From NCBI GenBank assembly GCA_902800525.1, contig CADCEV010000014.1, positions 1 to 64,000 of the forward strand: a stretch of 64,000 bases of DNA, read 5' to 3'. The translations under genes were made by a program, and so were the position numbers. Below the pieces are notes generated by a model. That model searched no databases, was not told the DNA's origin, and saw only the letters and a list, made by a program, of their open reading frames with translations. Each line of letters starts with the position of its first letter. Position 1 is the stretch's first letter. Positions 5,321 through 44,209 of this stretch are shown here, piece after piece. The stretch comes from an uncultured Bacteroidales bacterium. Lineage in GTDB: Bacteria; Bacteroidota; Bacteroidia; Bacteroidales; Paludibacteraceae.

Positions 5321-5360
5321 AAGTCTTCTAGTTGAAAGTCTTCTAGTATCAACTATCAAT

Positions 5361-5954: not shown

Positions 5955-5980
5955 AATTCGACGCAAAATTACAAAAATAT

Positions 5981-6011
5981 TTTGATATATGCAAATTTTT
6001 TTGTACCTTTG
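5981..6011 (+). promoter_or_regulatory. Promoter of ffh operon
   Basis: TTTG at 5981-5984 and TACCTTTG at 6004-6011 with 19 bp between them, 47 bp before the ffh ATG. Confidence 0.75.
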
Positions 6012-6057
6012 CACCCAAATTGGCAAAATTGTAAATGATTAAATCATAAATGTCTTT

Positions 6058-8264: not shown

Positions 8265-8288
8265 TTTTTAATTTATAATTTTTAATTT
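8255..8288 (+). repeat. Heptamer array (TAATTTT type)
   Basis: About five AT-rich 7-bp units span the folD stop and the gap to prfA. Same period as the CAATTAT and CAACTCT arrays. Confidence 0.6.
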
Positions 8289-8290
8289 CA

Positions 8291-9391: not shown

Positions 9392-9415
9392 TTTTTAATT
9401 TTTAATTCTTAATTT
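9387..9415 (+). repeat. Heptamer array between prfA and rsmE
   Basis: About four AT-rich 7-bp units (TTTTTAA-like) fill the 27-bp gap between the prfA stop and the GTG of rsmE. Confidence 0.55.
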
Positions 9416-9418
9416 CCC

Positions 9419-10123: not shown

Positions 10124-10207
10124 ATCGTAAATTATTTAAATCGTCAATAAATCGTGCCCCGTAGGGGCTAAGAATAATCTTAAAATCGTCAATCGTCCAA
10201 TCGTCAA
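10124..10207 (+). repeat. Repeat-filled gap with small hairpin
   Basis: Heptamer-like AATCGTC/AATCGTA units (10124-10150 and 10184-10207) flank a GC hairpin, GCCCC-GTA-GGGGC, near 10156-10168. The same AATCGTC units recur at 63765-63809. Confidence 0.5.
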
Positions 10208-10780: not shown

Positions 10781-11090
10781 AACGCTCGAACTCCTCCGGG
10801 GTCAACAATGCCTTCAACTCATTGTAGATCGCTTGCATCCGCTCCATGTTCTCGCCGCGAGACAGACCCTTCTGGCGAAAACGGGCATACTTGAGATGCA
10901 TCTTATACAGCGTATCGATGCGAACGGAGTCCTTGATCCCTAATTCGCGAACTAACCGGGTAGTCTGCTTTTGCGCTTCCTCTTCCGGCGTACGTTGAGG
11001 ACGGGATTCAGCACTACTAACAGCCTCCTGGGCTATTACACTTCCTGCCATGAAGGCGGAGAAAACAATAAAGAATAAACGTTTAATCAT
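10674..11090 (-). CDS. Small secreted DUF4890-like protein
   Basis: A 138-residue exported protein. Signal peptide MIKRLFFIVFSAFMAGSVIA is followed by a charged helical region whose pattern (TPEEEAQKQTTRLVRELGI, then YKMHLKYARFRQ) resembles the Bacteroidetes DUF4890/Spy-like periplasmic proteins. The tail is Pro/Arg/Gln-rich. ATG at 11090 is chosen over 11111 because it begins the signal peptide. Function is unknown; a periplasmic stress or chaperone-like role is only a guess from the fold pattern. The 3' end overlaps the PAP2 gene antiparallel. Confidence 0.65.
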   Translation of the reverse strand: MIKRLFFIVFSAFMAGSVIAQEAVSSAESRPQRTPEEEAQKQTTRLVRELGIKDSVRIDTLYKMHLKYARFRQKGLSRGENMERMQAIYNELKALLTPEEFERFMNHPAEQPRRPRGANGLKQAKQAPPIAPQTEDRP

Positions 11091-11149
11091 ACAAGTTTGT
11101 AATGTCGTCATGACTTAATGACGTCATCACTTACAATACAACAAAAATC

Positions 11150-12418
11150 ATGCCAAACAACGAACTTAAAATAGCATTCCGGCTATATTATTCGAGCCAA
11201 GGTCAGGAACGCAACTCGCGTCCTGCTGTTCGTGTGGCATTGGCGGGTATGATCGTGGGCGTTATGGTAATGATCGTGACCATTTGTATCGTCATCGGTT
11301 TCAAGCAGACCGTTGCCCGCAAAGTGGCTGGTTTTGGCGCACATATACAGCTCGTTTCTTTTGAGAATAACAACACCTATGACCTTCAGCCTATCGAGGT
11401 CTCCGATTCGCTTTTGGCAAGTTTGAGGGCATATGAACATGTGCGGGCAGTAGCTCCCTTTGTTACCAAACCCGGCATGCTCAAGACCGATTCGGCTTTT
11501 CACGGCATGGTACTCAAAGGAACCGATTACTGGGATTTCTTTGCTGCCAACTTGGTGGAAGGTGCGCTGCCCGAACAAAACAATCAAGTGCTGATTTCTC
11601 GTCTGATGGCGAACGCTATGCAGCTTGGAGTAGGGCAGAACGTCTTGGCGTATTTTGTCGATGACACGGATATCCGTGCGCGGCGTTTCATCATTTCCGG
11701 CATTTACGACTCCGGTTTTGCACAATTGGATGATCTCTTCCTTATTTCGCCGCTATCAACGGCTGAGAGACTTATTAACTCTAAACGAGACGACTTCTCT
11801 CAACTCTCAACTCTCAACTCTCAACTATCCATAGTTTCCGGCGTTGAGATCCTATTGGATGATATTCGCTATTTGGAGGAGACAGCTGACCGTATTTATT
11901 TCGCGACGGTTAACCATTTGGACGAGGACGGCTATCATGCCTATTACGTCCAGACGCTCAAAGAACAAAACCCCGCGGTTTTTGCGTGGCTCGATCTGTT
12001 AGACATGAACGTCGTGGTGATTATTATCCTTATGCTTCTCGTAGCGGGCTTTAATATCGTTTCCGGGCTGATTATCATGATCTTGGACGGCGTCCAACTC
12101 ATCGGTACTCTCAAAGCCTTAGGTGCCGACAACCGCTTTGTGCGGCGAATCTTCATCTACCAGGCCGCACTCCTCATCGGAAAAGGTATTCTTTGGGGCA
12201 ATATATTCGGTTTAGGGCTTGCGGCGGTTCAGTATTTTACCCATCTTATCCCCCTCGAAGCAAGCACTTATTACGTCAGCTACGTGCCTGTTGAGTTCGC
12301 ATGGACTTGGATCATCGCTTTGAATATCCTGACGATCGTCATTTCCCTGCTGATCCTTTTGCTCCCGTCGCTCATTGTAACTAAAATCAGTCCTGCTAAA
12401 GTAATGCACTTCGAATAA
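11150..12418 (+). CDS. LolC/LolE-type ABC transporter permease
   Basis: A 422-residue inner-membrane permease of the FtsX/MacB superfamily, similar to the LolC/E subunits that release lipoproteins from the inner membrane. One N-terminal helix (about 28-52) is followed by a large periplasmic domain and three C-terminal helices (about 280-305, 330-360, 385-415) ending KISPAKVMHFE, the typical family terminus. Residues about 218-226 (QLSTLNSQL) come from an in-frame heptamer array. The ATPase subunit is not adjacent. The stop overlaps the next ATG by one base. Confidence 0.85.
   Translation: MPNNELKIAFRLYYSSQGQERNSRPAVRVALAGMIVGVMVMIVTICIVIGFKQTVARKVAGFGAHIQLVSFENNNTYDLQPIEVSDSLLASLRAYEHVRAVAPFVTKPGMLKTDSAFHGMVLKGTDYWDFFAANLVEGALPEQNNQVLISRLMANAMQLGVGQNVLAYFVDDTDIRARRFIISGIYDSGFAQLDDLFLISPLSTAERLINSKRDDFSQLSTLNSQLSIVSGVEILLDDIRYLEETADRIYFATVNHLDEDGYHAYYVQTLKEQNPAVFAWLDLLDMNVVVIIILMLLVAGFNIVSGLIIMILDGVQLIGTLKALGADNRFVRRIFIYQAALLIGKGILWGNIFGLGLAAVQYFTHLIPLEASTYYVSYVPVEFAWTWIIALNILTIVISLLILLLPSLIVTKISPAKVMHFE
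11800..11827 (+). repeat. In-frame heptamer array in permease gene
   Basis: Four TCAACT(C/A) units lie inside the coding frame, preceded by GACGACTTCT (11789-11798), a flank also seen beside the array at 54511-54538. Confidence 0.8.
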
Positions 12419-13257
12419 TGAAACTGCAAACGATAGTTGATATTAAGCCTTCCTGTTGGAAGATCGGATACGAGGATCACATTCTCCTGTTAGGTTCGTG
12501 TTTCTCGGATGAAATCGGTGCGCAGATGCAGCAACGCAACCTGCACGTCACCTGCAATCCTTTCGGCACGCTCTATAATCCGCTCTCTATTGCGCAGGCT
12601 CTCAATTCTCAATTATCAATTGTCAATTACCAATTCCACGAGGGTCTCTGGCACTCTATGGCGCATCATGGTTCTTTCTCGCGTCCTACACGGGAAGAGA
12701 CGGAACAAGCCGTGAATGCATCTATTGACATATTACAAACCGCTCTTCGCACCGCTTCGACCGTCATTATTACCTTTGGAACATCGTGGGTGTACGAGAT
12801 GGATTCTTTCATTGTGGGAAACTGTCATAAGCTCCCGGCGGAATGTTTTACGCGTCGTCGCTTATCGGTAGAAGAGATAGTGGCGGCATGGCAACCCATC
12901 ATTGATAGTTACCACGACAAGCATTGGATCTTTACCGTCTCGCCGATTCGTCACGTCAAAGACGGACTCCATGAGAACCAACTTAGCAAGGCAACATTAC
13001 TGATGGCGGTGGAACAACTCTCCTCCCAAGAGGAGAGGTCGGACAGGGTTTCTTATTTCCCCTCTTACGAAATCCTTCTGGACGAACTGCGCGATTATCG
13101 TTTCTTTGCGGATGATCTTGTGCATCCTTCATCCCTTGCGGTGCAATATATATGGGAGCGGTTTGTCGAGACCTTCTGCACACCGCAGACTCGCAATCAA
13201 ATGGCGATTGAATACAAACACTGGAAACAAACCCAACATAGACCCTTACACCCATAA
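12418..13257 (+). CDS. GSCFA domain protein
   Basis: A 279-residue protein of the GSCFA family, defined by its N-terminal motif, here LLGSCFSDEIG (about 24-34), which resembles the SGNH/GDSL-hydrolase block I. Other family features are NPFGTLYNP, a GLWHSMAHHGSF stretch and FADDLVHPSSLAV near the C-terminus with Asp and His suited to a hydrolase triad. The substrate is unknown. Two repeat-derived inserts lie in variable loops: a heptamer array (12602-12636) and a GC-rich hairpin element (13019-13050). It is translationally linked to the upstream permease by a one-base overlap. Confidence 0.88.
   Translation: MKLQTIVDIKPSCWKIGYEDHILLLGSCFSDEIGAQMQQRNLHVTCNPFGTLYNPLSIAQALNSQLSIVNYQFHEGLWHSMAHHGSFSRPTREETEQAVNASIDILQTALRTASTVIITFGTSWVYEMDSFIVGNCHKLPAECFTRRRLSVEEIVAAWQPIIDSYHDKHWIFTVSPIRHVKDGLHENQLSKATLLMAVEQLSSQEERSDRVSYFPSYEILLDELRDYRFFADDLVHPSSLAVQYIWERFVETFCTPQTRNQMAIEYKHWKQTQHRPLHP
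12602..12636 (+). repeat. In-frame heptamer array in GSCFA gene
   Basis: Five TCAATT(C/A/G) units encode the NSQLSIVNYQF stretch. They occupy a loop just before the conserved GLWHS segment. Confidence 0.8.
13019..13050 (+). repeat. In-frame hairpin element in GSCFA gene
   Basis: CTCTCCTC faces GAGGAGAG across a short loop, then GGTCGGACAGGG. It encodes LSSQEERSDRVSY. The layout resembles dispersed GC-rich palindromic repeats found in other bacteria. Confidence 0.55.
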
Positions 13258-13261
13258 CATT

Positions 13262-14404
13262 ATGAAACGTATATCTGTCCTCATCCTCTTGTGTCTTTCC
13301 ACGCTCGCTTCCTTGGCTTGCGAACGTGTGGGTAAGCGCGTGTTACTCTATCCGTCTGTGGATCAGTTCGGCGAACCCGTTACGCTTTCCGGCATGATCT
13401 CGTGGCCGCAGAAAAAACAACCAAAAGGTATTATCCTCCTGCCGCATTTTACTATTTTTGCGAACTCGGAGGCTCCTTCACAAAACGGAACAGGAGAAGA
13501 GAAAAACTTCCAAAAGGACTTTGTCCTTATCATGCCGGATTATATCGGCTACGGGGCAACGAGTGAGCGTGTTCATCCGTATCTGGACGGAGAACTGACC
13601 GCCCGGAACTGCATCGATATGGCGCTTCACGCGATGCCGATTTTGGATAGTTTGCAACTCCGCATTCCGAAAGACAGTATCTATATCGTCGGTTATTCGC
13701 AAGGAGGAGCAGCGGCTGTTTGGATCCTCAAAACAATCGAAGAACGTTATGCCGACCGCATCCACGTCAAGAAATGTTTCGCGGGTAGCGGTCCGCACGA
13801 CGTGGCGGCTACGTATGACGAGGGTGTTCAGAACAACCGAATCCTCATGCCGGTAACGATCCCTCTGTTGATCAAGGGAACGGACGCGGCTTATGCCCTC
13901 AATTTGTACGAAGAGCATTTCTTCACGCCGGAAATGCAGGAAATATATGAGCGTGAGATGGTGAAAAAAGAGAAAACTTTTGGTGAACTCTTTATTCAGA
14001 CAATCAATTTCGAACTCTCTCATTGGCTGACGGCGAAAGGCATGGATAAGAACGATCCGGAAACTCATCGCCTCTATCAGGGTTTCTTGCGTTCCAGCCT
14101 CGTTCATTACCCATTGGATACACTTGCTGACAATAAACCGGACTCATTGCTCCTTAATTTGGCAGAGGACAGAGTTATCCCCACATGGGAGCCGCGTACA
14201 CCGATGCTGGTTTTTCATTCCACGAATGACAATGTGGTCACTTTCCGTTGTGCGGAGAATCTTCATCGCCGCTATGCCGATAATCCGTACATCACATGGG
14301 ATTTCGGCGAGTATGGCGATCATCTTTCTTCCTCTAACCGCTTCTTCAAGCTTGTCCGCGAGCAACTCCTCGAATCTCACAAATCCCAAAAATCCCGCAA
14401 ATAA
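13262..14404 (+). CDS. Secreted alpha/beta hydrolase (lipase/esterase-like)
   Basis: A 380-residue exported hydrolase. Signal peptide is about residues 1-19; the Cys after LASLA does not fit a good lipobox, so lipid anchoring is doubtful. The nucleophile elbow GYSQGG contains the catalytic Ser, and Asp in FHSTNDNVV and His in YGDHLSS are likely triad partners. The N-terminal layout with PDYIGYGAT resembles secretory lipases and prolyl-peptidase-like hydrolases. Substrate is unknown. ATG at 13262 begins the signal peptide; the open frame upstream overlaps the GSCFA gene and is not used. Confidence 0.8.
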   Translation: MKRISVLILLCLSTLASLACERVGKRVLLYPSVDQFGEPVTLSGMISWPQKKQPKGIILLPHFTIFANSEAPSQNGTGEEKNFQKDFVLIMPDYIGYGATSERVHPYLDGELTARNCIDMALHAMPILDSLQLRIPKDSIYIVGYSQGGAAAVWILKTIEERYADRIHVKKCFAGSGPHDVAATYDEGVQNNRILMPVTIPLLIKGTDAAYALNLYEEHFFTPEMQEIYEREMVKKEKTFGELFIQTINFELSHWLTAKGMDKNDPETHRLYQGFLRSSLVHYPLDTLADNKPDSLLLNLAEDRVIPTWEPRTPMLVFHSTNDNVVTFRCAENLHRRYADNPYITWDFGEYGDHLSSSNRFFKLVREQLLESHKSQKSRK

Positions 14405-14410
14405 TCAAAC

Positions 14411-14443
14411 AAAAACGATTGCCGAGAAAGGCAATCGTTTTTT
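14411..14443. terminator. Bidirectional terminator
   Basis: A perfect 13-bp stem (14411-14423 with 14430-14442) with A-run and T-run flanks lies between the convergent hydrolase gene and valS and can serve both. Confidence 0.85.
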
Positions 14444-14462
14444 GATGAACGATATGTAGCCA

Positions 14463-17120
14463 TTACTTGCTCTTGAGGGCTTTGATGGCTTCTTCGATGG
14501 AGGCAATACGGGATTCTGCATCGGACTTCTTCTTCTGCTCGAGAGCCACGATCTCCGGTTTGGCGTTTTGTACGAAGCGCTCGTTGGAGAGTTTCGCCAT
14601 GACACCTTTGAGGAAACCTTGCTGGTGAGCGAGGTCGGCTTCGAGTTTCTTGAGCTCTTCCTCTACGTTGATGAACGCGTCCATCGGGATAGCATATTCG
14701 ACCGTTCCTACAAGGAATTTGGAGAGACCCCCCTCGTTCCCCCCTTGGATGGGGGAGGATACATCTACATTCGCGAGTTTTTGGAGGAGAGACGCGTATT
14801 GGTAAATATCTGCTCCTTCGAAATAGAGGGTCAGACGCTCCTTCTGCGGAATGTTCTTCGATGCACGGACATTGCGTACTCCGGAGACAATCTCTTTCAG
14901 CGTTTCGATAGCTGCAAGTACCGCGTCGTTTTCGTCTCGTTTTCGACTCGTTGTCGTCTCGTTTTCGTGTTGGGAAGCTATCATGATGCTTTCTCCCGGT
15001 TTGCGCTCATAGAGGTTTTGCCAGAGTTCCTCAGTGATGAACGGCATGAAGGGGTGGAGTAGTACGAGCAGGCGGTCGAAGAATGCGAGGGTGGCTTCGT
15101 ACGTAGCGCGGTCGATGGGTTGCTGGTATGCGGGTTTGATCATTTCGAGATACCAGCCGCTGAACTCGTCGCAGTAGAGTTTGTAAATCTCCATAAGCGC
15201 CTCGGAGAGACGGTATTTGGAGAAGAGGTCTGCTATCTCTGCGGCGGTCTTGTCCAGTTGCGCATCGAACCACTCGATGGCAAACTTGCTGGTCTCGGGC
15301 TGCGGGATATCTGCTATTTCAAGGCCTTTGACCATACGGAAACAGTTCCAGATCTTGTTGCAGAAGTTACGTCCCTGCTCGCAGAGGGAATCATCATAGA
15401 GGATATCGTTTCCTGCAGGCGCAGAAAGGAGAATACCCATACGCACACCGTCGGCGCCGAAACGCTCGATGAGGTCTAATGGGTCAGGACTGTTGCCGAG
15501 AGATTTGGACATTTTGCGTCCGAGTTTGTCACGTACAATACCTGTGAAATAGACGTGCTTGAACGGCATCTTGCCTTGGTATTCATAGCCCGCCATGATC
15601 ATACGTGCTACCCAGAAGAAGATAATATCCGGTCCCGTTACGAGGTCTGCGGTCGGGTAGTAATAGTTGATCTCTTTGTTGTCCGGGTGCTCAATACCAT
15701 CAAACAAGGAAATCGGCCATAACCAGCTGCTGAACCAAGTATCCAAAGCTCCTTCGTCCTGAACATAGTTGCCTTCCGGCGCGCTCTCTGAAACGATGAT
15801 CTTGTCGTCCGGGTAGTTCTCGAGGCCGGTTTCAGCCAACAGGTCTGCGTCGTAATATGCCGGGATGCGGTGTCCCCACCAGAGTTGGCGGGAAATACAC
15901 CAGTCTTTGATGTTCTCGAGCCAGTTGCGGTATGTGTTCTTGTATTTCGCAGGATAGAAAACGATGTCGTCGTTCATAACCGGCGGAAGTGCGATGTCTG
16001 CGAAATGCTGCATTTTCATGAACCATTGGAGGCTCAAACGCGGCTCGATAGGCACGTTCGTACGCTCGGAGTAACCGACTTTGTTGTCGTAGTCCTCGAT
16101 TTTCTCGACGAGGTTAAGCGCTTTGAGGTCTTCGATGATAGCTTTGCGGCAGTCGAAACGATCCATGCCGTGGTATTTGCGTACGTTAGCTTGGAGTTCC
16201 GGCTCCACTGTGTCCATGTTGAGGTGTGCGTCCGGCGTGAAGATGTCAATGGTTTTCAAATTATATTTCTGACCTAAAGCGTAGTCGTTGACGTCGTGCG
16301 CCGGGGTCACTTTGAGGCAGCCTGTTCCGAAACCGATCTCCACGTAACGGTCTTCGATAATAGGGATCACACGCCCAACGCCCGGCACGATGACGTGCTT
16401 GCCTTTGAGCCACTGGTTCTTCTCCTCTTTGGGGTTGATGCAGACTGCTATGTCGCCGAAAATGGTCTCCGGACGCGTGGTAGCCACGATGGCATATTTG
16501 CCCGGCTCTTCGGCAACTTCGTAGCGCAGGTAATAGAACTTGTTATGCTCGTCGTGGTAGATCACCTCCTCGTCTGAAAGGGCCGTCTGACGCTCCGGGT
16601 CCCAGTTGACCATACGCAGACCGCGGTAGATGAGGCCTTTTTTGTACAGGTCGCAGAATACTTTGATGACGGCTTTTGAACGGGTTTCGTCCATGGTGAA
16701 GGACGTGCGGTCCCAGTCGCAGGAACAGCCGAGTTTGCGGAGCTGCTTCAAGATGATGCCTCCGTGCTCGTCGGTCCACGCCCACGCATGTTTGAGGAAC
16801 TCCTCGCGGGTGAGGTCGGATTTATTGATGCCTTGCTCTTTGAGGCGTTTGATCACTTTTGCTTCGGTTGCGATAGACGCATGGTCGGTACCGGGCACCC
16901 AGCAAGCGTTCTTGCCTTCCAAGCGCGCACGGCGTACCAAAATGTCCTGAATCGTCTCGTTGAGAACGTGTCCCATGTGCAGCACGCCTGTTACGTTAGG
17001 CGGCGGAATAACGATAGTGAACGGATCGCGGCCGTCCGGCTCGCTATGAAAGAGTTTGTTGTCAAGCCAATACTGATACCAGCGGGCTTCGATGTCTGTC
17101 GGATTGTACTTAGATTCCAT
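14463..17120 (-). CDS. valS: Valyl-tRNA synthetase
   Basis: The 885-residue class I synthetase that charges tRNA-Val. HMGH (48-51) and [10 protein letters not shown] (about 533-542) form the ATP site; the editing domain lies between and the C-terminal coiled coil is present (about 805-885). ATG at 17120 ([11 protein letters not shown]) is chosen: the frame extends upstream only through heptamer repeats and over the promoter. Two repeat-derived inserts are in frame: an 11-bp array (14924-14967, residues about 718-732) and a GC-rich palindrome (14726-14762, about 786-799), both in the anticodon-binding/C-terminal part where length varies. The gene is convergent with the hydrolase and divergent from the BASS transporter. 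Confidence 0.96.
14726..14762. repeat. GC-rich palindromic element inside valS
   Basis: CCCCCC(T)...CCCCCCTT-GGAT-GGGGGAGG pattern, read in valS as [12 protein letters not shown]. The order of its blocks matches the element inside lysS (49684-49722) in the opposite orientation relative to the coding strand. Confidence 0.7.
14924..14967. repeat. Undecamer array inside valS
   Basis: Four 11-bp units of TCTCGTTTTCG type (reverse CGAAAACGAGA). The same 11-bp family forms the intergenic array at 51461-51515. Confidence 0.8.
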
Positions 17121-30306: not shown

Positions 30307-31218
30307 ATGAAAATCACCGAATCGGTCGCCAAACCATTTATAAAGTGGGTTGGCGGAAAAACACAGCTCATTGAGCAATTAGAAGCTTTGCTTCCGGCTG
30401 ATTTTGATGAATGGAAAGAGGTGACGTACATTGAGCCTTTTGTGGGCGGAGGAGCGATGCTCTTCTATATGTTACGTACACACGCCAATATCCAAACAGC
30501 CGTTATTAACGACATCAATTCGGATCTGACGACGTGCTACAAGGTGGTGCGCAATCATCCGTCGGAATTGGTGGAGTCTCTGCAACAGATCCAAGACGAG
30601 TATTATGCACTCACGTCCGAAGATGAGCGCAAGGCTTTCTATATGCAGCGGCGTGACGAGTTTAATACCAAGTCGTTAGACCCGCTCCGTAACACCACGT
30701 TATTCTTTTTTCTGAACCGTACTTGCTTTAACGGCCTTTATCGCGTCAATAAAGCAGGACTTTTCAACGTGCCTTTCGGTCGCTATGATCATCCGCAGAT
30801 ATGCGACGCCAAGACGATTTATGTGGATAGTGCGTTATTGCAAAAGGTAGAGATATTTACCGTGGATTACCAGCAAGTTTTTCCTTTTGCTCAAGGAAAG
30901 ACGCTCTTTTATTTCGATCCGCCTTACCGTCCTTTGAACAATACCAGCAGTTTTAACGATTATGCGAAAGAGCCTTTTAATGACCTCGCGCAAGTTCGTT
31001 TGAAAGAATTTTGCGACACGGTTGACGCGTCCGGCTATCATTTCATGCTGAGCAATTCGGATTGTCAGGATGGTTTCTTTGATGATCTCTATTCTCCATA
31101 CATCATTGAGCGTGTTTTTGCATCGCGTAGTATAAATGCGAACCCCAGCAAACGCGGCAAACTGACCGAGATCCTGGTGCATAATTATAAAGAAGTCAAA
31201 CAAAACCAATTATTCTAA
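30307..31218 (+). CDS. DNA adenine methylase, D12 class (DpnM-like)
   Basis: A 303-residue N6-adenine methyltransferase, alpha class (Dam/DpnM type). The SAM motif FIKWVGGKTQLI (about 11-22, a variant of FxGGK) and the catalytic DPPY (about 203-206, in YFDPPYRPLNNTSSFNDY) are in the expected order, and FFLNRTCFNGLYR is a conserved family segment. Next to a DpnII-like nuclease it is expected to methylate the A of GATC and protect host DNA. The nuclease gene starts 4 bp after the stop. Confidence 0.94.
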   Translation: MKITESVAKPFIKWVGGKTQLIEQLEALLPADFDEWKEVTYIEPFVGGGAMLFYMLRTHANIQTAVINDINSDLTTCYKVVRNHPSELVESLQQIQDEYYALTSEDERKAFYMQRRDEFNTKSLDPLRNTTLFFFLNRTCFNGLYRVNKAGLFNVPFGRYDHPQICDAKTIYVDSALLQKVEIFTVDYQQVFPFAQGKTLFYFDPPYRPLNNTSSFNDYAKEPFNDLAQVRLKEFCDTVDASGYHFMLSNSDCQDGFFDDLYSPYIIERVFASRSINANPSKRGKLTEILVHNYKEVKQNQLF

Positions 31219-31221
31219 ACT

Positions 31222-32055
31222 ATGGCAGCACATACTACAGCACAATTCGATTTGTTCATGTCTCAGTTACGCGAGACGAACGCAACACTTGATTTCTATT
31301 GTGACTTCCCGAAAATTGCACGGAATGTTGCGGACATCGAGATAAGTCTTAACACTCTCAACTATCTTATCGGAAAAGAAAATCTCCGTGAGGCAGTAGA
31401 GGCACTTTGGAATCGGGACAAACGCGTATTCGAAGTAATGGACATCCTCATAGCGACGCGAAAGAAAGACGATAAGAAATACATTGACTACGATGGTTCT
31501 ATGCACTCTATTCACTCGCTTTTTCATTCGGTAGATGGAGTAATGAAATTTATCGAGGGAACAGGTCTTGATAAGGTTTTCAAAAACAAAGAGGTGAAAG
31601 ATTTGGTGGATTACGTCTTTGGTGTAGAAACAGGACTTGATACGAACGCGCGCAAGAATAGAAGCGGAGAGATTACAGAGACGCTTGTGGCTCGTATCTT
31701 AAAAAATGCGGGAGTTAAGTACCGCGAACAAGTGTCGTCCAAAGAATTCCAGGCTATTTCGGCTGTGCTTGGAGCAGACCAGAAAGTTTTTGATTTTGCG
31801 GTTTCTGCTAATGGAAAAACCTATCTCATAGAGGTGAATTTCTACTCAGGAGGTGGTTCTAAACTCAATGAAGTTGCTCGCTCCTATACGGATGTCGCGC
31901 CGAAAGTAAACGGAGTGCCTGGCTTTGAGTTTGTGTGGATTACCGATGGTATCGGTTGGAACTCTGCCCGCAATAAATTGGAAGAAGCGTTTGCGGCTAT
32001 ACCAAGTATCTACAATCTAACGACCATTAGCGAGTTTATCGAACGTGTCAAATAA
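31222..32055 (+). CDS. DpnII/MboI-family type II restriction endonuclease
   Basis: A 277-residue endonuclease like R.DpnII (about 288 residues), which cuts unmethylated GATC. The catalytic stretch is visible toward the C-terminus: FDFAVSANGKTYLIEVNFYS (Asp...Glu-x-Asn; the PD-(D/E)XK variant of this family) followed by GGGSKLNEVARSY, a signature of DpnII/MboI proteins. Position between two methylases matches known systems. The stop overlaps the GTG of the next gene by 11 bp. Confidence 0.92.
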   Translation: MAAHTTAQFDLFMSQLRETNATLDFYCDFPKIARNVADIEISLNTLNYLIGKENLREAVEALWNRDKRVFEVMDILIATRKKDDKKYIDYDGSMHSIHSLFHSVDGVMKFIEGTGLDKVFKNKEVKDLVDYVFGVETGLDTNARKNRSGEITETLVARILKNAGVKYREQVSSKEFQAISAVLGADQKVFDFAVSANGKTYLIEVNFYSGGGSKLNEVARSYTDVAPKVNGVPGFEFVWITDGIGWNSARNKLEEAFAAIPSIYNLTTISEFIERVK

Positions 32056-33229
32056 CGCAACATATCCCGATTTCCGCATCCTGCAAGGCGATTGTATGGA
32101 GCGATTGAACGAGATAGAGGATAACTCTATCGACGCTATCTTTGCTGATCCGCCGTACTTCTTGAGTAATGGAGGAATAAGTGTGCAAAGCGGCAAGCAA
32201 GTGTGCGTGGACAAAGGCGATTGGGACAAAGGCGGCACGCCTGAATACATCTATGAGTTTAACCGTAAATGGCTTGGTCTATGTCGCTCCAAACTGAAAG
32301 AAAATGGAACGATTTGGATTAGTGGCACACACCATAATATCCATGTGGTTATGCGCTGTTTGCAAGAGCTCGGCTACAAAGTGCTCAATACGATTACTTG
32401 GCAGAAAACAGACCCGCCACCCAATTTGTCGTGCAAGTATTTTAATTTCTCTACCGAACTCATCATTTGGGCGCGCAAGTCGGAAAAGAAAACGCACAAG
32501 TTCAACTACGAGACCATGAAACAACTGAACGGCGGTACGCAGATGACCGATGTGTGGCGTATTCCGGCGGTGGGTTCATGGGAGAAAGTGCAAGGCAAAC
32601 ACCCGACACAAAAGACCTTGCGTCTATTGTATCGAATCATCCTTGCTTCCACCAATGAAGGCGACACCATCCTTGACCCGTTCAGCGGTTCAGGCACAAC
32701 AGGTATTGCTGCTAATCTGCTCGGACGCAAGTACATCGGCATTGAGCAAGATCCTTCTTTTGTGGACTTATCTTTGCGTCGCCGCGAAGCCTTAGAGGAC
32801 GAACCGACACGCAAGAAACTCGTTGACAAAATGCGTGAGAACGGGCAAGAGGCAACGGTTCTGGTGAATCACATGCGCGAGAAAGACCGTGAACTGGCGA
32901 TGCGGTTAGGCATAACGTACACGCGTGCCGGAGATAGTAAAGGTTCGTTGCTTGTGAAAGAAGGCTTTGAGCGTTTGGGCTATATTTGCCTGCATACCAA
33001 CGGAGAGAATCCGCAACTATTCAAGCAGACCAACAAAGGCTTTCGGATATATACCGCGAAAGACTTACAGAATATGGGATTTTCTGCCGAGAACGCACCA
33101 TATTATGCTGTATTCCTCTTTGACCCGAACAAACCCATTTCCTTCGACCAAGAGATAGACCTCCACAAGAAGAAATACACCCAAGTGGCACACATAGAAC
33201 CACTTAGGTATTTTATCGCCATCAAATAG
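32045..33229 (+). CDS. Second adenine methylase, beta class (DpnA-like)
   Basis: A 394-residue methyltransferase whose motif order (DPPY at 35-38, then DPFSGSGTTG near 211-220) marks the beta class, like DpnA (M2.DpnII). DpnA can act on single-stranded DNA, which protects incoming DNA during transformation or transfer. Residues about 265-394 form an extra C-terminal region, longer than the usual DpnA length, with a charged helix, a KGSLLVKEGFERLGY stretch and a basic, aromatic end. Start GTG at 32045 gives the expected N-terminus (FRILQGDCMERLNEI). Confidence 0.9.
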   Translation: MSNNATYPDFRILQGDCMERLNEIEDNSIDAIFADPPYFLSNGGISVQSGKQVCVDKGDWDKGGTPEYIYEFNRKWLGLCRSKLKENGTIWISGTHHNIHVVMRCLQELGYKVLNTITWQKTDPPPNLSCKYFNFSTELIIWARKSEKKTHKFNYETMKQLNGGTQMTDVWRIPAVGSWEKVQGKHPTQKTLRLLYRIILASTNEGDTILDPFSGSGTTGIAANLLGRKYIGIEQDPSFVDLSLRRREALEDEPTRKKLVDKMRENGQEATVLVNHMREKDRELAMRLGITYTRAGDSKGSLLVKEGFERLGYICLHTNGENPQLFKQTNKGFRIYTAKDLQNMGFSAENAPYYAVFLFDPNKPISFDQEIDLHKKKYTQVAHIEPLRYFIAIK

Positions 33230-38013: not shown

Positions 38014-38574
38014 ATGAATATGACAGAATACGAAAAAATGCTTCATAACATGCCGTATGATTATACGGACAAGGAAGTTCAGGCGAATATCCTGCGGGCG
38101 TATTATGCCATGCGGGATCTCAATCAATGCGGCGCATGGGATATGGACGAGTTGCACCGTTGTATCAAAGCTCTCATTCCCGATGCGCATCCCTCGGTAA
38201 TCATTTGTCCGCCATTCCATTGCGACCACGGTAACCGAATCAGCATAGGCGAAGGTTCGTTTATCAATTTTAATGGGGTCTTCTTGGATGGCGGAGGTAT
38301 CACTATCGGCGCTCACACGCTCATCGGGCCTAACTGCCAACTGCTGACGCCTGATCATCCGCATGATTATCTGGAGCGGCGTCAGACCATAGAAACAGGT
38401 CTGCCGATACGCATCGGCGATGACTGCTGGCTGGGCGGCGGAGTGATTGTTTGTCCGGGTGTCACCATCGGTAACCGTGTGATTGTTGGAGCCGGTTCGG
38501 TCGTCACGCATGACATCCCAGATGATGTCGTCGTTGCCGGCAATCCCGCCAGGATTATAAACACGAAGAAATGA
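38014..38574 (+). CDS. Sugar O-acetyltransferase (Maa/LacA type)
   Basis: A 186-residue left-handed beta-helix acetyltransferase. The N-terminal Maa segment (MTEYEKMLHNMPYDYTDKEV) and the hexapeptide repeats ending IGDDCWLGGGVIVCPGVTIG, GAGSVVTHDIPDDVVVAGNP and ARII are intact; His in LLTPDHPHD is the catalytic base. It acetylates a sugar with acetyl-CoA. Overlaps the next ATG by 4 bp. Confidence 0.93.
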   Translation: MNMTEYEKMLHNMPYDYTDKEVQANILRAYYAMRDLNQCGAWDMDELHRCIKALIPDAHPSVIICPPFHCDHGNRISIGEGSFINFNGVFLDGGGITIGAHTLIGPNCQLLTPDHPHDYLERRQTIETGLPIRIGDDCWLGGGVIVCPGVTIGNRVIVGAGSVVTHDIPDDVVVAGNPARIINTKK

Positions 38575-38801
38575 AATTGATAGACACCACTAATATGTGC
38601 TCGCACTTGCAGCGGAAGTTATTCACCGAGAACGGCGAGTACTGCGCTATCCGTGAGCAGATAGAGACCGACTCGACGCTGACAGCTGTTGTCCGTTCTC
38701 GGCAGTTACATATCTATCGCGACGGAAAGAAAATCCTTGTCCTTGCAGGCAAGAGTGCGCCGAAGATCATTCGGGAAGATAAATTGACAAAATTATTATG
38801 A
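38571..38801 (+). CDS. Small hypothetical protein
   Basis: A 76-residue protein, MKLIDTTNMCSHLQRKLFTE, with a central beta-rich part (AVVRSRQLHIYRDGKKILVL) and a basic end. No family recognised. It overlaps the acetyltransferase stop (ATGA) and its own stop overlaps the ATG at 38798, so it was probably translated as part of a chain. Confidence 0.5.
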   Translation: MKLIDTTNMCSHLQRKLFTENGEYCAIREQIETDSTLTAVVRSRQLHIYRDGKKILVLAGKSAPKIIREDKLTKLL

Positions 38802-38848
38802 CATACGAAGAATACATAGCCCAACAGCAGCAAACTTTGCATATTTGA
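38798..38848 (+). pseudogene. Truncated copy of the MTYDEYIAQQQQ ORF
   Basis: A 16-codon frame MTYEEYIAQQQQTLHI then stop. It matches 37895-37930 up to CAGCAGCAAA and then breaks off where the WYL-operon promoter begins (TTTG at 38836). It may mark the left edge of an inserted cassette. Confidence 0.55.
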
Positions 38849-38866
38849 AAAAAATCTATATATTTG
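38836..38866 (+). promoter_or_regulatory. Promoter of the WYL operon
   Basis: TTTG (38836-38839) and TATATTTG (38859-38866), 19-bp spacer. A second -7-like TAATTTTG is at 38900-38907. The leader of about 50 bp before the ATG could hold a WYL-regulator operator. Confidence 0.6.
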
Positions 38867-38928
38867 CACACTCTTTTAGTTTGTGGGAGTATGAAGCAGT
38901 AATTTTGCAGCCGAAAAATTTAACGCAC

Positions 38929-39870
38929 ATGGAAACGAAAACAAATCAGAAGTCATCAAGGCCGTATCTCTTTAAGAGCTATATTTGGCTGGTAAATACT
39001 ATCGCTCGCGGTCCTATATCACGAGCCGCGATAGACGAGAAATGGGCGCACGCTTCTGCTAATTCATATAAGCAGGATTGTATCCCTGAAAGTAATTTCC
39101 ACCGTTGGAAAAGCACTATTGAAGAACTTTTCGGTATCAAAATCAAGTGTAACGGGAATAACGAGTACTACATCGAGGAGGCTGCCGACTTACGCGGCGG
39201 CGATCTGCGTATGCGCGCTCTAAACCTTATGTCCGCAAACAACCTGCTTAAAGACAGCGAGGAGCTATCCGACCGAATTCTGTTTGAGCCTGTTCCTTCT
39301 GGAGAAAAGTTTTTGACTCCTATCATTGAAGCTATGCGTGATATGACCGCCATCAACATGAAGTATCAAGGTTTCACGCGTCAAAAACCGGCTACTTTCA
39401 GCGTTGAGCCATATTGCCTCAAGGTGTTCAAGCAACGCTGGTATATGCTTGCGTATTCTCCCGGTCTTGATAAGACGATGATCTACTCTCTCGATCGTGT
39501 TCACGCAGTTGAACCGACCAAGCAGAAATATAAGTTGCCGAAGGGCTTCAATGCAGAAGAGTACTTTAAAAATACGTACGGTGTTACAGGCATGGATGAA
39601 GAGCCGGAGGATATCGAGATATGTATCGATGCTATGCAGGCAAATTACTTACGTACACTGCCTCTCCATTCAACGCAAGAGGAGATTGAGCGCAATGATG
39701 ACTATTCCATCTTCCGTTTTCACATGGTTCCTTCCTTTGAGTTTATGCAGGAACTACGGAAGTATGGTTCGAATGTGCAGGTTATTTCTCCGGAATCTTT
39801 ACGTTCTGAATTTGCTGCTGATGCAGAAAGTTTAAATGACATTTATACAGGAAAGGCTCCTTGGATATGA
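38929..39870 (+). CDS. WYL-domain regulator
   Basis: A 313-residue protein with an N-terminal helix-turn-helix-like region (about 15-100) and a WYL domain (about 130-225) including QRWYMLAYSPGLDK and MIYSLDRVHAVEP. WYL regulators such as BrxR and CapW commonly control phage-defence operons and bind nucleic-acid-type ligands. The C-terminal region (about 240-313) fits the WCX extension. ATG at 38929 lies just after the promoter; upstream in-frame ATG at 38845 would overlap it. The stop overlaps the exonuclease ATG by 4 bp. Confidence 0.88.
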   Translation: METKTNQKSSRPYLFKSYIWLVNTIARGPISRAAIDEKWAHASANSYKQDCIPESNFHRWKSTIEELFGIKIKCNGNNEYYIEEAADLRGGDLRMRALNLMSANNLLKDSEELSDRILFEPVPSGEKFLTPIIEAMRDMTAINMKYQGFTRQKPATFSVEPYCLKVFKQRWYMLAYSPGLDKTMIYSLDRVHAVEPTKQKYKLPKGFNAEEYFKNTYGVTGMDEEPEDIEICIDAMQANYLRTLPLHSTQEEIERNDDYSIFRFHMVPSFEFMQELRKYGSNVQVISPESLRSEFAADAESLNDIYTGKAPWI

Positions 39871-40388
39871 AAGATTTTGTAGCTATAGATTTTGAGACCG
39901 CTAATGGTAAGCGTAGCAGTATTTGTTCTGTGGGAGCGGTTGTCGTGAAGGACGGAGAAATCGTTGATTCCTTTTATTCCTTAGTAAAGCCCACGCCCAA
40001 CTACTATGCATGGTTCTGCCAGGAGGTGCACGGTTTGGACTACTGCGACACAGATGATGCTGACTTCTTTCCGGAAGTGTGGGCACGCTTACAGAAAAAG
40101 GTGCACGAGTATTTCCCGTTCATCGAAGATGGAGAAGTGCCCTTTGTTGCGCACAACGCACGCTTTGATGAAGGTTGCCTGCGTGCTGCATTTGCCACCT
40201 TTGATTTGGCTTTGCCAAACTACGAGTTTATGGACACCCTTGCAGCATCGCGCAATTATTTTGGCTCTGCGCTCCTGAACCACCAATTACACACGGTCGC
40301 AGCTGCTTGTGGCTACGATCTGCAGAACCACCACCATGCCCTCGCCGACGCCGAAGCCTGCGCATGGATAGCAAGAGAAATTGTTTAA
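39867..40388 (+). CDS. DEDDh 3'-5' exonuclease (DnaQ-like)
   Basis: A 173-residue stand-alone exonuclease of the DnaQ/epsilon superfamily. All catalytic blocks are visible: DFET (Asp8, Glu10) in ExoI, AHNARFD in ExoII, and HHALADAEA (about 156-164) in ExoIII with His and Asp. No polymerase or DnaE-binding part is attached. Coupled to the WYL gene by ATGA overlap. In defence systems such exonucleases often degrade foreign DNA or RNA; here the role is inferred from context. Confidence 0.9.
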   Translation: MKDFVAIDFETANGKRSSICSVGAVVVKDGEIVDSFYSLVKPTPNYYAWFCQEVHGLDYCDTDDADFFPEVWARLQKKVHEYFPFIEDGEVPFVAHNARFDEGCLRAAFATFDLALPNYEFMDTLAASRNYFGSALLNHQLHTVAAACGYDLQNHHHALADAEACAWIAREIV

Positions 40389-40407
40389 TTATATAATTTG
40401 AATGATT

Positions 40408-40995
40408 ATGAATACGTCAGGACACAAAAGTATTGATCCTATTCTATGGGATGTTGCACAATTTGTCAATAATAACGGTAATGAAGCTTTTGGTTATATC
40501 CAGAGCGCATTTGGTATTGATAAAGAAAGAGCTAATGCTCTTATTGACTACCTATGTATTGCTGGAATTGTCACTATGACAACATTTGGTCCCCGAGCAA
40601 ATTATTTTGACAGGGATGGCTTAGTGGATAGATGTAGCTTACTTGATTTTATGTATGACAATCGTATGGAATTAAAGGCTATTTCACCGAAAATAAAAGT
40701 TCTTGATGAAGGTTTGATTATAAGCACAAATGCCAAAATAGATGGTTACAAATGCATGTTGTTGATGTACATTGTCGAGAATGATTTAATCGCCATTTTG
40801 CGCGCAGATTCTGCAAACACAATCATAGATGAGCATTTTGTTTCTCAATTTATAAAAGACAATTTTATGAACTATTTTGAATATGAAGAGCCTCATGCAT
40901 TGATGAAATATTTCCCTATAGACTTTTATGATTGTGCTTATGATTGGTACAAGAAAGTGCTGGCTAAATTCTTAGAATTTAACGAAGAAAACTAA
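40408..40995 (+). CDS. FtsK-gamma-like winged-helix protein
   Basis: A 195-residue protein. Residues about 8-55 (DPILWDVAQFVNNNG, then YIQSAFGIDKERANALIDYL and CIAGIVTM) follow the FtsK gamma-domain pattern, a winged helix that reads short DNA sites such as KOPS. The remaining 140 residues are alpha/beta with no known motif. GC content is clearly lower than in core genes. ATG at 40408 is preferred, ATG at 40402 is also possible. It is the least recognised member of the operon. Confidence 0.6.
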   Translation: MNTSGHKSIDPILWDVAQFVNNNGNEAFGYIQSAFGIDKERANALIDYLCIAGIVTMTTFGPRANYFDRDGLVDRCSLLDFMYDNRMELKAISPKIKVLDEGLIISTNAKIDGYKCMLLMYIVENDLIAILRADSANTIIDEHFVSQFIKDNFMNYFEYEEPHALMKYFPIDFYDCAYDWYKKVLAKFLEFNEEN

Positions 40996-40999
40996 TATT

Positions 41000-42175
41000 A
41001 TGGAAGCAGATAAATTATGTTCATTGCTTAAAGAAATTGAGCAATTGAGAGTGAAAATAGATAACGTTCAATGTGAGTATCCATACCGTTTAAATGTGAT
41101 TGACGAATTGCATATAAACGAAAATGGGCATAGCCGAATATTATCGAAACTTCTTCAATACCGTTCGGAGATTGGTCAATATGTATATTTAGAATCTCTC
41201 TTAAATTATATTAATACTCATAAGAGTGTTAATTTTCCGACTCGTGTGCATCCTAATCCTAATATTACGCAGGAGGAAGAAAGAATCGACTTGTGGGTGA
41301 GGGATAAAGACTTTGCTTTGATTTTTGAAAACAAAGCATGTGGAGCTTACGATCAAGATACACAATTGTTTAGATATATTCAACGGACTAAGAACCATGG
41401 TTATTTGGATAATCAGATATACGTGATTTATCTTCCTCCTACTAATGATAGCGCCCCTTCTGATTATTCATGGAATGGACTTGAAAGTGAATTTGCAGAA
41501 AGGTTCGTCCAATTATCTTTTAGAGATGATATCGTTGAATGGATGCAAAATGAGGTCATTCCGCAAATCAATCCTAAAGACAAACTGCTGGGTACTGCAA
41601 TGTTCCAGTATTGCGATTATTTAAAAGAAATGTTTAACTTAAATGGCGATAATATGGAAAGTCATATTTGGAAAGTGTTAGATGAGGAGTTTAATCTACC
41701 TCAAGATATTGAAGAAAAGAATATCGCGTTATTTGATGCATCTAACAAATATCAAGAAGTACTTAATGAAATTTCAAGGTACAGGGATAGTGTAAATACT
41801 GAACTGAATGAAAGAATAAAGGCATTCTTACATTCTGATGAGGTAAAAAAGATAGCTTCTAATTTGAAATATATTGACGAAAATAGAGGTGGGTATCAAT
41901 TTGTATGTGAAGGAAAGACAATAGATTTCGTTATAGGGCTTGGAGGCGTACGTTGGTATGTGCAAATGCAGTGGAATGACGCAACTCCTTATAACGATAG
42001 AAACTATCCCGATATCCTTAAAACTGACAAGGATATCTTTGAGGTTGGAGGTAAATATACTCTGAATGAACTTTCCAGTTGGAAATTTATATATCGCTAC
42101 TGTCAAAATTTGAATGAGACCTTCGATGTTTACATGCACGTTTTGAAACGTATCGTAGAAATCTGTGATAAATAA
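41000..42175 (+). CDS. PD-(D/E)XK nuclease superfamily protein
   Basis: A 391-residue protein of the PDDEXK_4-like group. The core is at about 80-130: ERIDLWV with Asp about 97, IFENKACGAYDQDTQLFRYI with the Glu-x-Lys catalytic pair and a downstream Gln. HSRILSKLLQY precedes it, as in this family. The C-terminal half is mostly helical with a coiled stretch (about 235-290). AT-rich codons suggest recent acquisition. It starts 4 bp after the previous stop and closes the operon. Related proteins are found in defence islands. Confidence 0.8.
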   Translation: MEADKLCSLLKEIEQLRVKIDNVQCEYPYRLNVIDELHINENGHSRILSKLLQYRSEIGQYVYLESLLNYINTHKSVNFPTRVHPNPNITQEEERIDLWVRDKDFALIFENKACGAYDQDTQLFRYIQRTKNHGYLDNQIYVIYLPPTNDSAPSDYSWNGLESEFAERFVQLSFRDDIVEWMQNEVIPQINPKDKLLGTAMFQYCDYLKEMFNLNGDNMESHIWKVLDEEFNLPQDIEEKNIALFDASNKYQEVLNEISRYRDSVNTELNERIKAFLHSDEVKKIASNLKYIDENRGGYQFVCEGKTIDFVIGLGGVRWYVQMQWNDATPYNDRNYPDILKTDKDIFEVGGKYTLNELSSWKFIYRYCQNLNETFDVYMHVLKRIVEICDK

Positions 42176-42223
42176 TTTTTCATAAAAATTCACCCTCTCC
42201 CATTTTATAAAAGAGTGGTGTTG

Positions 42224-42256
42224 TAATTTTGCAGCGTGATTCGAAAGAGTCGCGCT
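42224..42256 (+). promoter_or_regulatory. Promoter -7 box and leader hairpin
   Basis: TAATTTTG (42224-42231) is followed by a hairpin, CAGCGTGATTC with GAGTCGCGCTG (42233-42257, GAAA loop). No -33 box is clear. Precedes the genes at 42270-43752. Confidence 0.5.
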
Positions 42257-42269
42257 GTAATTTTATAGT

Positions 42270-42581
42270 ATGAGCAAGAAAAGCTACACAGAAAAAGAGT
42301 TTTGGAGTCATAGCCATGACTTCCCTATCGAAGAAATCTGGAACACGGAAATCACGATTGCCGCCTTCGTTGCACCACGGCTAAAAGCATTTAAGAGCTT
42401 AAAGAAACATGGCTTCCCTTCGGAGATGAATAATGAGCGACAATGGGATAGCACTATCCAAAAGATGATAGACGCCTTTGAGATATTAAGTCGCCCATAT
42501 ACTCCGACAGACGAAGAATATCCAATTGTAGAGGAGGGGCTTGACCTTTTCCGCAAATACTATCGCAATCTTTGGGACTAA
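42270..42581 (+). CDS. Small hypothetical protein (SHSHDFP type)
   Basis: A 103-residue protein, with FWSHSHDFPIEEIWNTEITI and AAFVAPRLKAFKSLK, then MIDAFEILSRPYTP and EEGLDLFRKYYRNLWD. The pattern of an AFxAPRLxxF segment and a C-terminal GLDLFxxYxxxLW is shared by small proteins of unknown function in Bacteroidales and their phages. Function unknown. First of four short genes. Confidence 0.6.
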   Translation: MSKKSYTEKEFWSHSHDFPIEEIWNTEITIAAFVAPRLKAFKSLKKHGFPSEMNNERQWDSTIQKMIDAFEILSRPYTPTDEEYPIVEEGLDLFRKYYRNLWD

Positions 42582-42598: not shown

Positions 42599-42853
42599 AT
42601 GGACACGCAATCTATTGATGACCAGCTGGAATTGCTGCGTCTTAAGGAATTATTTATGTCGGATATTAAGATCCGAAGTAAAATGGCTATGCTTATCTGC
42701 GAAGAAGACTCCTCACACAAGGAATTTTGCGAACTTACGCATTGCACACCGGACATAGCGAAAATGTTTGCAGAACAATTGTTAATAGATGTTTTTCTTA
42801 CTCCGGAAGAAATTGCAGCAGAGCGTGAACGTTTAGAAAGGATGAAACTATAA
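42599..42853 (+). CDS. Hypothetical protein
   Basis: An 84-residue acidic, helical protein (MDTQSIDDQLELLRLKELFM, then CEEDSSHKEFCELTHC and a charged end). No recognised family. Four Cys residues lie in the middle third. It sits 17 bp after the previous gene and 12 bp before the next, so it is likely co-transcribed. Confidence 0.5.
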   Translation: MDTQSIDDQLELLRLKELFMSDIKIRSKMAMLICEEDSSHKEFCELTHCTPDIAKMFAEQLLIDVFLTPEEIAAERERLERMKL

Positions 42854-42865: not shown

Positions 42866-43501
42866 ATGATACAATATGACGAACAGACCCTTCAACTTAT
42901 TGAAGAAGAAATAACCTACATTTATCAATCCGATGTAACAGGCTATCCGCAAAGTGAATTTTTGCTTGACTTACGGAAAAGTATCTTGAACGAGCAAGCA
43001 TTAACGCGTGAAGCTCAAGAAGAACTTCTGCCCGACATAATTGCCTTTAATGACGCCTTGCATGACGCGCTTAAACGTATGTATGACCGCGCGCATGAGC
43101 TCTATCGTCAGATGTCAGCTATTCAACCAGATATTCAGTTAATCGCCAAATGTTATCTTGCATATGACTATCCTGCTTTGCATCCCTACCAAAAAGAAGA
43201 CAGACAAGATTTGTTTGATGTTATATGCGATTTCGGTTGGAATAGACTATATGCAGATGGAGTTACTTTTTCACTGGAATTGCCACGCGATATAGACATC
43301 CCTTTCGACACTATCAGAGGCATGGACTGCAAACCGTTTAACTGGAATGAAGGTCTTGACCCCGAACTTACGAAAGATCTCCATATCAATCGTGCCTTCC
43401 ACAATCTTTTTGACCATACCAACTTTGCACTAACAGATTTTATCTTCTGCCGAGATTTTGTCTTTGAGTATAGCACTATTATACAAGAACAAACCAACTA
43501 A
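42866..43501 (+). CDS. Hypothetical protein
   Basis: A 211-residue acidic protein rich in Asp, Glu, Leu and Tyr, for example MIQYDEQTLQLIEEEITYIY and FNDALHDALKRMYDRAHELY, with aromatic-rich C-terminal part. No signal peptide or membrane segment and no known motif. Codon use is like its AT-rich neighbours. Function unknown. Confidence 0.55.
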   Translation: MIQYDEQTLQLIEEEITYIYQSDVTGYPQSEFLLDLRKSILNEQALTREAQEELLPDIIAFNDALHDALKRMYDRAHELYRQMSAIQPDIQLIAKCYLAYDYPALHPYQKEDRQDLFDVICDFGWNRLYADGVTFSLELPRDIDIPFDTIRGMDCKPFNWNEGLDPELTKDLHINRAFHNLFDHTNFALTDFIFCRDFVFEYSTIIQEQTN

Positions 43502-43515: not shown

Positions 43516-43752
43516 ATGAAAACATTTGTAAGAAAACACTTCAAAGATGAGTATGGAGTAGAATTCTCCACTTGTGCTGACATTACCACACTCACACGTA
43601 TGCCATCGGGCATAAAGGGAGAATATCGAATTCCGGACTTTGTGACTGACATCGGCGCATATGCCATAAATGGATGCAATGAGTTGACAGCACTAGTCAT
43701 TCCTAAGACTGTATCGGTGATAGGGAAGAATAATTTTGAGTTGTGTGAGTAA
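43516..43752 (+). CDS. Truncated BspA-like leucine-rich repeat protein
   Basis: A 78-residue protein with one to one-and-a-half LRR_5 (BspA-type) repeats: YRIPDFVTDIGAYAINGCNE followed by LTALVIPKTVSVIG. Full BspA-like proteins carry many repeats and a signal peptide; this one has neither and stops soon after the first repeat, so it may be a fragment. The stop lies at the start of a repeat-rich noncoding stretch. Confidence 0.5.
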   Translation: MKTFVRKHFKDEYGVEFSTCADITTLTRMPSGIKGEYRIPDFVTDIGAYAINGCNELTALVIPKTVSVIGKNNFELCE

Positions 43753-44134: not shown

Positions 44135-44136
44135 AG

Positions 44137-44209
<73 letters not shown>

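Follow-up and report, generated by a model that had tools for sequence, protein, structure and literature searches.

A modular, WYL-headed two-unit locus of a Paludibacteraceae genome as a candidate defence cassette with exchangeable effectors

Introduction

Regulators of the WYL family are known to stand ahead of defence genes in bacteria; one of them, BrxR, is a WYL repressor of a defence operon that binds inverted repeats (PMC9122601). A locus of comparable make-up lies between position 38836 and about 43.5 kb of the window, by which is meant the whole stretch analysed here (64,000 nucleotides, positions 1 to 64,000 of contig CADCEV010000014.1, GenBank assembly GCA_902800525.1, 2.39 Mb) from an uncultured Bacteroidales bacterium of the Paludibacteraceae. 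It is fairly probable that this locus is one version of a two-unit, WYL-controlled, modular cassette that defends against foreign DNA. Computation establishes its gene content, the exchange of effectors between conserved flanks, the related elements at its promoters and purifying selection on the gene pairs that were measured.

The cassette resembles the BrxR and CapW operons in having a WYL gene at the operon head and probably also in the inverted repeats at its promoter (PMC9122601, PMC9122588), and the palindrome of the cassette's second promoter may be the counterpart of the second repeat set that BrxR has before the defence genes (PMC9122601). Unlike both, the cassette has a second promoter with a conserved hairpin, and within one genus its effectors are exchanged from locus to locus. 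The annotated genes of the window locus showed no sign of BREX or CBASS, although no model search was run for the BREX core (PglX, PglZ, BrxC). CapK/CapS also places one regulator type ahead of many diverse immune operons, although that regulator is described as a kinase plus a repressor whereas the cassette has a WYL protein (PMC13373217). GmrSD-family type IV restriction enzymes, of which BrxU is given as an example (PMC12409352), are the effector in some cassette loci whereas the window has a PDDEXK_4 nuclease; neither GmrSD nor McrBC is found among the first four genes of the window's cassette by Pfam and PADLOC. The attack on phage DNA by Brig1 and Brig3, anti-phage glycosylases of the UDG superfamily (PMC11078745, PMC13160076), is the role proposed here for the UDG-like effectors of other loci; however, the excerpts of the Brig reports mention no WYL gene, the UDG assignment in the cassette loci is weak, and in the window's cassette Pfam detects no member of this superfamily. 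HerA/FtsK capture and BREX-related capture systems, as outlined in their report, are like the cassette loci in that FtsK-type proteins occur near nucleases (PMC12839542), whereas the FtsK-like proteins of the cassette are without Walker A in four of seven loci and the window holds a gamma-type domain only.

The initial annotation was aware of no named system with this layout. That part holds for the open-access literature covered here (titles and abstract starts; subscription papers outside the scope), in which the two-unit layout, and in particular the second unit, was not found described; the nuclease itself, on the other hand, matches the models of PADLOC PDC-S26, which is listed as a candidate and for which no paper was found.

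Organisation of the window locus

The locus was first described as a one-promoter operon ending at 42175. Its WYL promoter stands, but the end does not: behind the effector gene lies a second promoter (42195-42258), followed by conserved genes (unit 2) as far as about 43.5 kb. The features are as follows; loci and genomes are referred to below by L and G numbers respectively.

38871..38889, plus strand: imperfect palindrome CTCTTTTAGTTTGTGGGAG that covers the -33 element and is proposed as the WYL operator, with its centre as in relatives
38900..38907, plus strand: -7 box TAATTTTG of the WYL promoter; the DNA is conserved from 38836 in L135
38929..39870, plus strand: WYL/WCX transcription regulator, 313 aa, ATG start (Pfam WYL 8e-12 and WCX 8e-10, both above the curated cut-off; WYL proteins in the PDB)
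39867..40388, plus strand: EXO, stand-alone DEDDh exonuclease, 173 aa (Pfam RNase_T 4e-16, Rv2179c-like 9e-19; alignment to PolC exonuclease 2p1j, 4e-11)
40408..40995, plus strand: G3, FtsK-gamma-like winged helix plus C-terminal domain, 195 aa (Pfam, profile, model)
41000..42175, plus strand: PDDEXK_4 nuclease, 391 aa (Pfam 2.1e-15; PADLOC PDC-S26 1.1e-26; D...ENK motif by eye)
42195..42215, plus strand: palindromic operator-like site of the second promoter over the -33 element, like the WYL-promoter palindrome
42224..42231, plus strand: -7 box TAATTTTG of the second promoter
42231..42258, plus strand: HP, a hairpin closed by a GAAA loop on a 12-bp stem, where the second transcript begins (RNA fold -20.1 kcal/mol, z -5.8)
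42270..42581, plus strand: 103-aa protein, first gene of unit 2 (open reading frame without Pfam match)
42599..42853, plus strand: F84, 84 aa, unit 2 (94% identity to L142; ratio of nonsynonymous to synonymous substitution rates, dN/dS, 0.056)
42866..43501, plus strand: F211, 211 aa, unit 2 (model with mean predicted local distance difference test score, pLDDT, of 81.7; no confident fold match)
43516..43752, plus strand: reading frame of 78 aa that matches the beginning of a leucine-rich (BspA-like) protein, about 280 aa long, known from other loci; its link to the cassette is uncertain

The -7 box TAATTTTG of the WYL promoter is of the Bacteroidota type. The tight packing of the first four genes was described correctly from the outset: the reading frames and Pfam agree with its coordinates and domains (a 4-bp overlap of WYL and EXO, then gaps of 19 bp before G3 and 4 bp before the nuclease), and the identities given to the products (WYL regulator, DnaQ-type exonuclease, FtsK-gamma-like winged helix, PDDEXK_4 nuclease) are borne out by Pfam and profiles. 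The drop in GC content over the last two genes is likewise seen, with 0.43-0.47 in WYL and EXO against 0.33-0.34 in G3 and the nuclease (500-base windows).

Constant flanks and exchanged effectors

What stays constant in the cassette is the WYL gene together with the second promoter. Among 101 sampled genus genomes, 24 carry the HP pattern, at 32 sites in all, whereas the reversed pattern has no site; in the order it is present in 2 of 393 genomes, both members of the window genus. At 27 of these 32 sites a WYL gene lies upstream on the same strand (26 by gene map and one, about 7 kb away, by coordinates only); among the other five, L262, L263 and L264 come within about 350 bp of a contig end, and L069 and L261 do not. 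Since T-G pairs are retained in the stem, HP would, in our reading, suit an RNA hairpin better than a DNA palindrome. The HP promoter with related genes is also present on two IMG/VR contigs (L266, L267), which may be viruses or host DNA and whose maps are of the same locus type. The window genome itself has a second locus of this kind, L260 (G000:C21:1-9000), with a WYL gene, a UDG-like 218-aa protein, an HP promoter and an F211-like protein.

Exchange is directly visible between the window and L135 (on the same contig as L066): the DNA is 89% identical over 38836-40415 and EXO at 97% of residues, the cargo that follows is unrelated (F181 and a UDG-like gene in L135, G3 and PDDEXK_4 in the window), and homology resumes from 42200 at 90% identity. 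Across loci, the cargo behind WYL-EXO comprises PDDEXK_4, GmrSD proteins (paired or single), nucleases of the PLD type and small partners. The counts that follow refer to 34 HP loci (30 from HP sites found in the 101 genus genomes and 4 from EXO-relative loci, the G409:C19 site lying outside the stretches covered), taken after removal of the duplicates L135 and L146, 29 of which have a WYL gene before HP; the protein clusters and profiles are our own and were built from members of the same locus set. In unit 1 of the 29 WYL-headed loci the effector is UDG-like in 18 (7 of them in two better-supported clusters), PDDEXK_4 in six and GmrSD in two, with none assigned in L078, L142 and L245, and the further genes are EXO (11 loci), DUF6140 (10), SM137 (6), F181 (5), PLD (4) and G3 (2).

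PDDEXK_4 is kept in L138, L067 and L083 (54-67% identity), where its partners differ. The window nuclease matches the PDC-S26 models over most of its length, and the GmrSD proteins are PADLOC candidate HEC-06. In L142, which has the same proteins as G563, WYL, EXO, SM137 and G3 are followed by a protein of 327 aa in which a PD-(D/E)XK-like motif was assigned by eye. Support for the UDG-like group is uneven: one cluster matches Pfam UDG at 0.007 (below cut-off) and the solved UDG 4zbx at 0.0033, three more are linked by profile comparison (UDG5-UDG1 74%, UDG5-UDG2 91%, UDG2-UDG4 99%), and UDG3 was assigned by eye alone. Outside the family, WYL-EXO is followed by a PLD-type gene in two Salinivirgaceae metagenome-assembled genomes (L163, L169).

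The four genes do not form a conserved set, and a fixed four-gene system is rejected: full-length G3 is found in 2 of 178 genus genomes, EXO in 11 of the 29 loci and PDDEXK_4 in 6 of them, with a PDDEXK_4 match in 4 of 61 relatives (window genome included; one other full length at 55% identity, two partial). The neighbourhood search proposed at the outset was carried out, and it is the WYL-headed locus, with a varying effector, that recurs in the genus. Carriage on known plasmids or phages was also rejected: PDDEXK_4 has only distant plasmid relatives (7 records, covering no more than 65% of the query at about 31% identity), and the phage records contain no match to G3.

Distribution of EXO and G3

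The DEDDh residues of EXO are in place by eye in the 2p1j alignment, and its dN/dS is 0.04-0.05 against two relatives. Matches, some of them fragmentary, occur in 38 of the 101 sampled genus genomes, and 80 of 393 order genomes have one with an E-value of 1e-30 or lower. The closest named relatives come from Paludibacteraceae metagenome-assembled genomes of sheep, yak, cattle, goat and deer. Relatives of the WYL gene are present in 74 of the 101 genus genomes. A WYL gene lies upstream on the same strand within 2.2 kb of 16 of the 39 mapped genus EXO genes (window excluded; one of the 16 is a 107-aa fragment), 10 of them within 100 bp. In an EXO tree of 126 rows, with the window label assigned by hand and row L210 a long-branch misfit, a single supported clade unites 13 rows that have neither WYL nor cargo; clustering is seen for the labels 'none' and 'WYL+cargo' (as low in 0 of 500 shuffles) and not for 'WYL' alone (70/500) or 'cargo' alone (500/500).

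The N-terminus of G3 is identified from its sequence as an FtsK-gamma homologue. It matches Pfam FtsK_gamma at 5.8e-4, its 20 bits falling short of the curated cut-off of 30.6, and the segment 6-56 aligns with the end of long frames of FtsK size (G3 profile, E about 1e-4 to 1e-7). The profile has matches in 167 of 178 genus genomes, almost all of those among the matches listed being tails of FtsK-sized frames; the window genome's own FtsK lies within an 868-aa frame. With regard to the reading of KOPS-type DNA, the host stretch GYNRAGKL corresponds by eye to DKERANAL in G3. Among 393 order genomes the full-length protein appears in one, the window's own, and dN/dS against one full-length relative is 0.165. 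The structure prediction suggested at the outset for this 195-residue protein (mean pLDDT 73, winged-helix part 61-68) gave a partial answer: Foldseek retrieves the FtsK gamma structures 2ve8 and 2ve9 with probability 0.75-0.91 but E above 0.3, while the C-terminal domain has no confident fold match, the best E-values being EGOC chains at TM-score 0.23. This C-terminal domain is fused to F84 in L249 and L269.

Operator-like palindromes at both promoters

Palindromes were scanned as complementarity in the 40 bp before each -7 box. Over 35 second-promoter rows the peak is 0.557 against a median over centres of 0.257, and over 31 WYL-promoter rows it is 0.439 against 0.262, with the same centre. 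Covariation at the second-promoter palindromes exceeds 2000 of 2000 shuffles, and the two palindromes within one locus are more alike than permuted pairs (0.622 versus 0.565, 42/10,000, 25 loci), both similarity and covariation tests being inflated by relatedness of the loci. At the WYL promoter the palindrome is clear in many relatives and imperfect in the window.

Unit 2 and host-like genes

In unit 2 of the 34 loci, F211 is present in 18, F84 in 15 and F195 in 8. FtsK-like (7 loci), DnaB-like (3), MreB-like (4) and SprT-like (4) genes also occur, with any of FtsK, DnaB or MreB in 13. Pfam supports FtsK in L246, L142 and L081 (L083 below cut-off), DnaB_C in L246 and L258, and MreB in L250, L251 and L253; the remaining assignments come from our own profiles. 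Walker A is absent from the FtsK-like proteins of L142, L136, L263 and L083 (retained in L246, L081 and L152) and from both DnaB-like proteins inspected, and the MreB-like proteins of L250, L251 and L256 consist of the later half of MreB only, that of L253 being full length. These cassette genes are extra copies: a host MreB is found elsewhere in G478, G409 and G425, a host-sized DnaB in G466, G418 and G458, and a long FtsK frame in G418, G563, G416 and G430; in G444, a 66% complete assembly, only the cassette MreB was found. The Walker-less FtsK pair L142/L263 has dN/dS 0.23 and the MreB-like pair L250/L256 has 0.30, so that these copies do not look like plain decay.

Since several of the extra copies lack Walker A or the N-terminal half and yet do not look like plain decay, the WYL repressor could control the induction of an exchangeable DNA-attacking enzyme together with inactive or truncated FtsK, DnaB and MreB paralogues (in the window, the G3 FtsK-gamma domain), which would serve as decoys or sentinels against those phage proteins that attack the corresponding host machines. 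We regard these host mimics as unlikely: Walker A is kept in three of the seven FtsK-like proteins and one MreB-like protein is complete, the L142 FtsK-like protein matches the defence translocases SspH (1.6e-9) and mad8 (3.5e-5) in PADLOC, and all three types of copy are absent from 21 of the 34 loci. Were they decoys, decoy immunity would have a counterpart in bacteria, and the copies would indicate which host machines are attacked by phages of gut Bacteroidales.

Further genes lie in or at unit 2. It includes SprT/YgjP-like metallopeptidase genes in L066 (7445-8230), L083, L249 and L254, and in L078 a PDDEXK_4 relative that, judged by eye, no longer has the ENK motif. In L246, L248 and L253, leucine-rich proteins within or beside unit 2, each about 257 aa long, have a start resembling F84 (hhalign E 9e-4, probability 23%), and F84 may be an exchangeable N-terminal domain. 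After the cassette of L078 lies a 3277-aa reading frame (4672-14505).

Proposed function and alternatives

We infer an anti-phage role, nuclease activity and a division of labour among the products and, by analogy with BrxR and CapW, repression of the cassette by its own WYL protein. The WYL protein would bind two similar palindromes, one covering the -33 element of the WYL promoter and one at the second promoter, keeping both units low, until an infection or DNA-damage signal sensed by the WYL domain releases it. Unit 1 would then provide an enzyme that attacks DNA. In the window this would be the PDDEXK_4 nuclease; EXO would degrade the ends and G3 would possibly dock on DNA through its winged helix, while unit 2 (the 103-aa protein, F84 and F211; elsewhere also FtsK-, DnaB- and MreB-like proteins) might tune or guard the response.

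This defence reading is supported by the exchange of cargo between conserved flanks at 97% EXO identity, by the presence of a known DNA-attacking type, GmrSD, among the swapped-in genes, and by the PADLOC candidates PDC-S26 and HEC-06 in the loci. It also draws on the WYL genes that precede most HP sites, the centre shared by the palindromes of both promoter types, the precedent of defence operons repressed by WYL proteins that bind to inverted repeats (PMC9122601), and dN/dS values of 0.04-0.30 across all pairs where computable.

Several observations weigh against it. Covariation at the WYL promoter is weaker and is matched by 83 of 2000 shuffles, some promoters (e.g. L245, L256) having been picked wrongly and kept in the set, and in the window itself the identity between the two palindromes is only 50%. 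Several EXO genes without WYL sit in housekeeping-like surroundings. Evidence for the UDG-like label, the largest effector group, is weak: the UDG2-type profile finds no UDG among solved structures, and PADLOC returns nothing for seven of eight UDG-like proteins, with a weak SIR2 match (0.015) for L255. The 327-aa PDDEXK_4-type protein of L142 was assigned by eye and has no PADLOC match, F84, F211 and the 103-aa protein are without known function, and few phage or plasmid relatives of cassette parts were found.

A mobile-element maintenance or toxin-antitoxin module, in which the nuclease is the toxin and the small partners or unit 2 the antidote, is suggested by the small genes (G3, SM137, F181, DUF6140) that adjoin the enzymes and by surroundings that differ among relatives. 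We think it quite unlikely, however, as the partners vary even where loci share an enzyme family, inspection of the locus maps revealed no integrase, transposase or relaxase (no model search being aimed at them), and tRNA genes occur in only 2 of 44 related loci. Alternatively, the locus could be a DNA-damage or stress operon, its WYL protein acting like PafBC or SiwR while EXO and PDDEXK_4 process damaged host DNA; PafBC is the best PDB match of the window's WYL protein (1e-7), EXO resembles replication and repair exonucleases, and WYL regulators of DNA damage are on record (PMC10693628, PMC11804915). This is nevertheless improbable, given an enzyme that is patchy among species of one genus and is swapped, between conserved flanks, for unrelated ones including GmrSD. 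A recombination hotspot without joint function, WYL-EXO and the second promoter being mere conserved flanks for unrelated genes, would fit homology that stops sharply at the EXO end and restarts at the second promoter, but is very improbable with a cargo that is not a random gene sample, related palindromes at both promoters and purifying selection on the measured cargo pairs.

If the locus is indeed a defence cassette, the regulator and hairpin promoter are kept while the enzyme is exchanged, so new effectors might be read from genomes by promoter search.

Genomic surroundings

The restriction set reported upstream at first inspection is present at 30307-33229 of the window, ending 5.6 kb before 38836. 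It is of type II and consists of a Dam-family methyltransferase, a restriction nuclease and a second adenine methyltransferase, and we take it to be reminiscent of DpnII-type sets. A tRNA-Thr gene (44136-44209, minus strand) follows shortly after F211; a tRNA-borne island was rejected, ARAGORN giving the 2 of 44 count noted above and no sign that the relatives' cassette targets tRNA genes. Directly before the cassette lies a 76-77-aa protein (window 38571-38801), which is also found directly before a WYL-less EXO (L085 5693-5926) and may mark an old insertion site.

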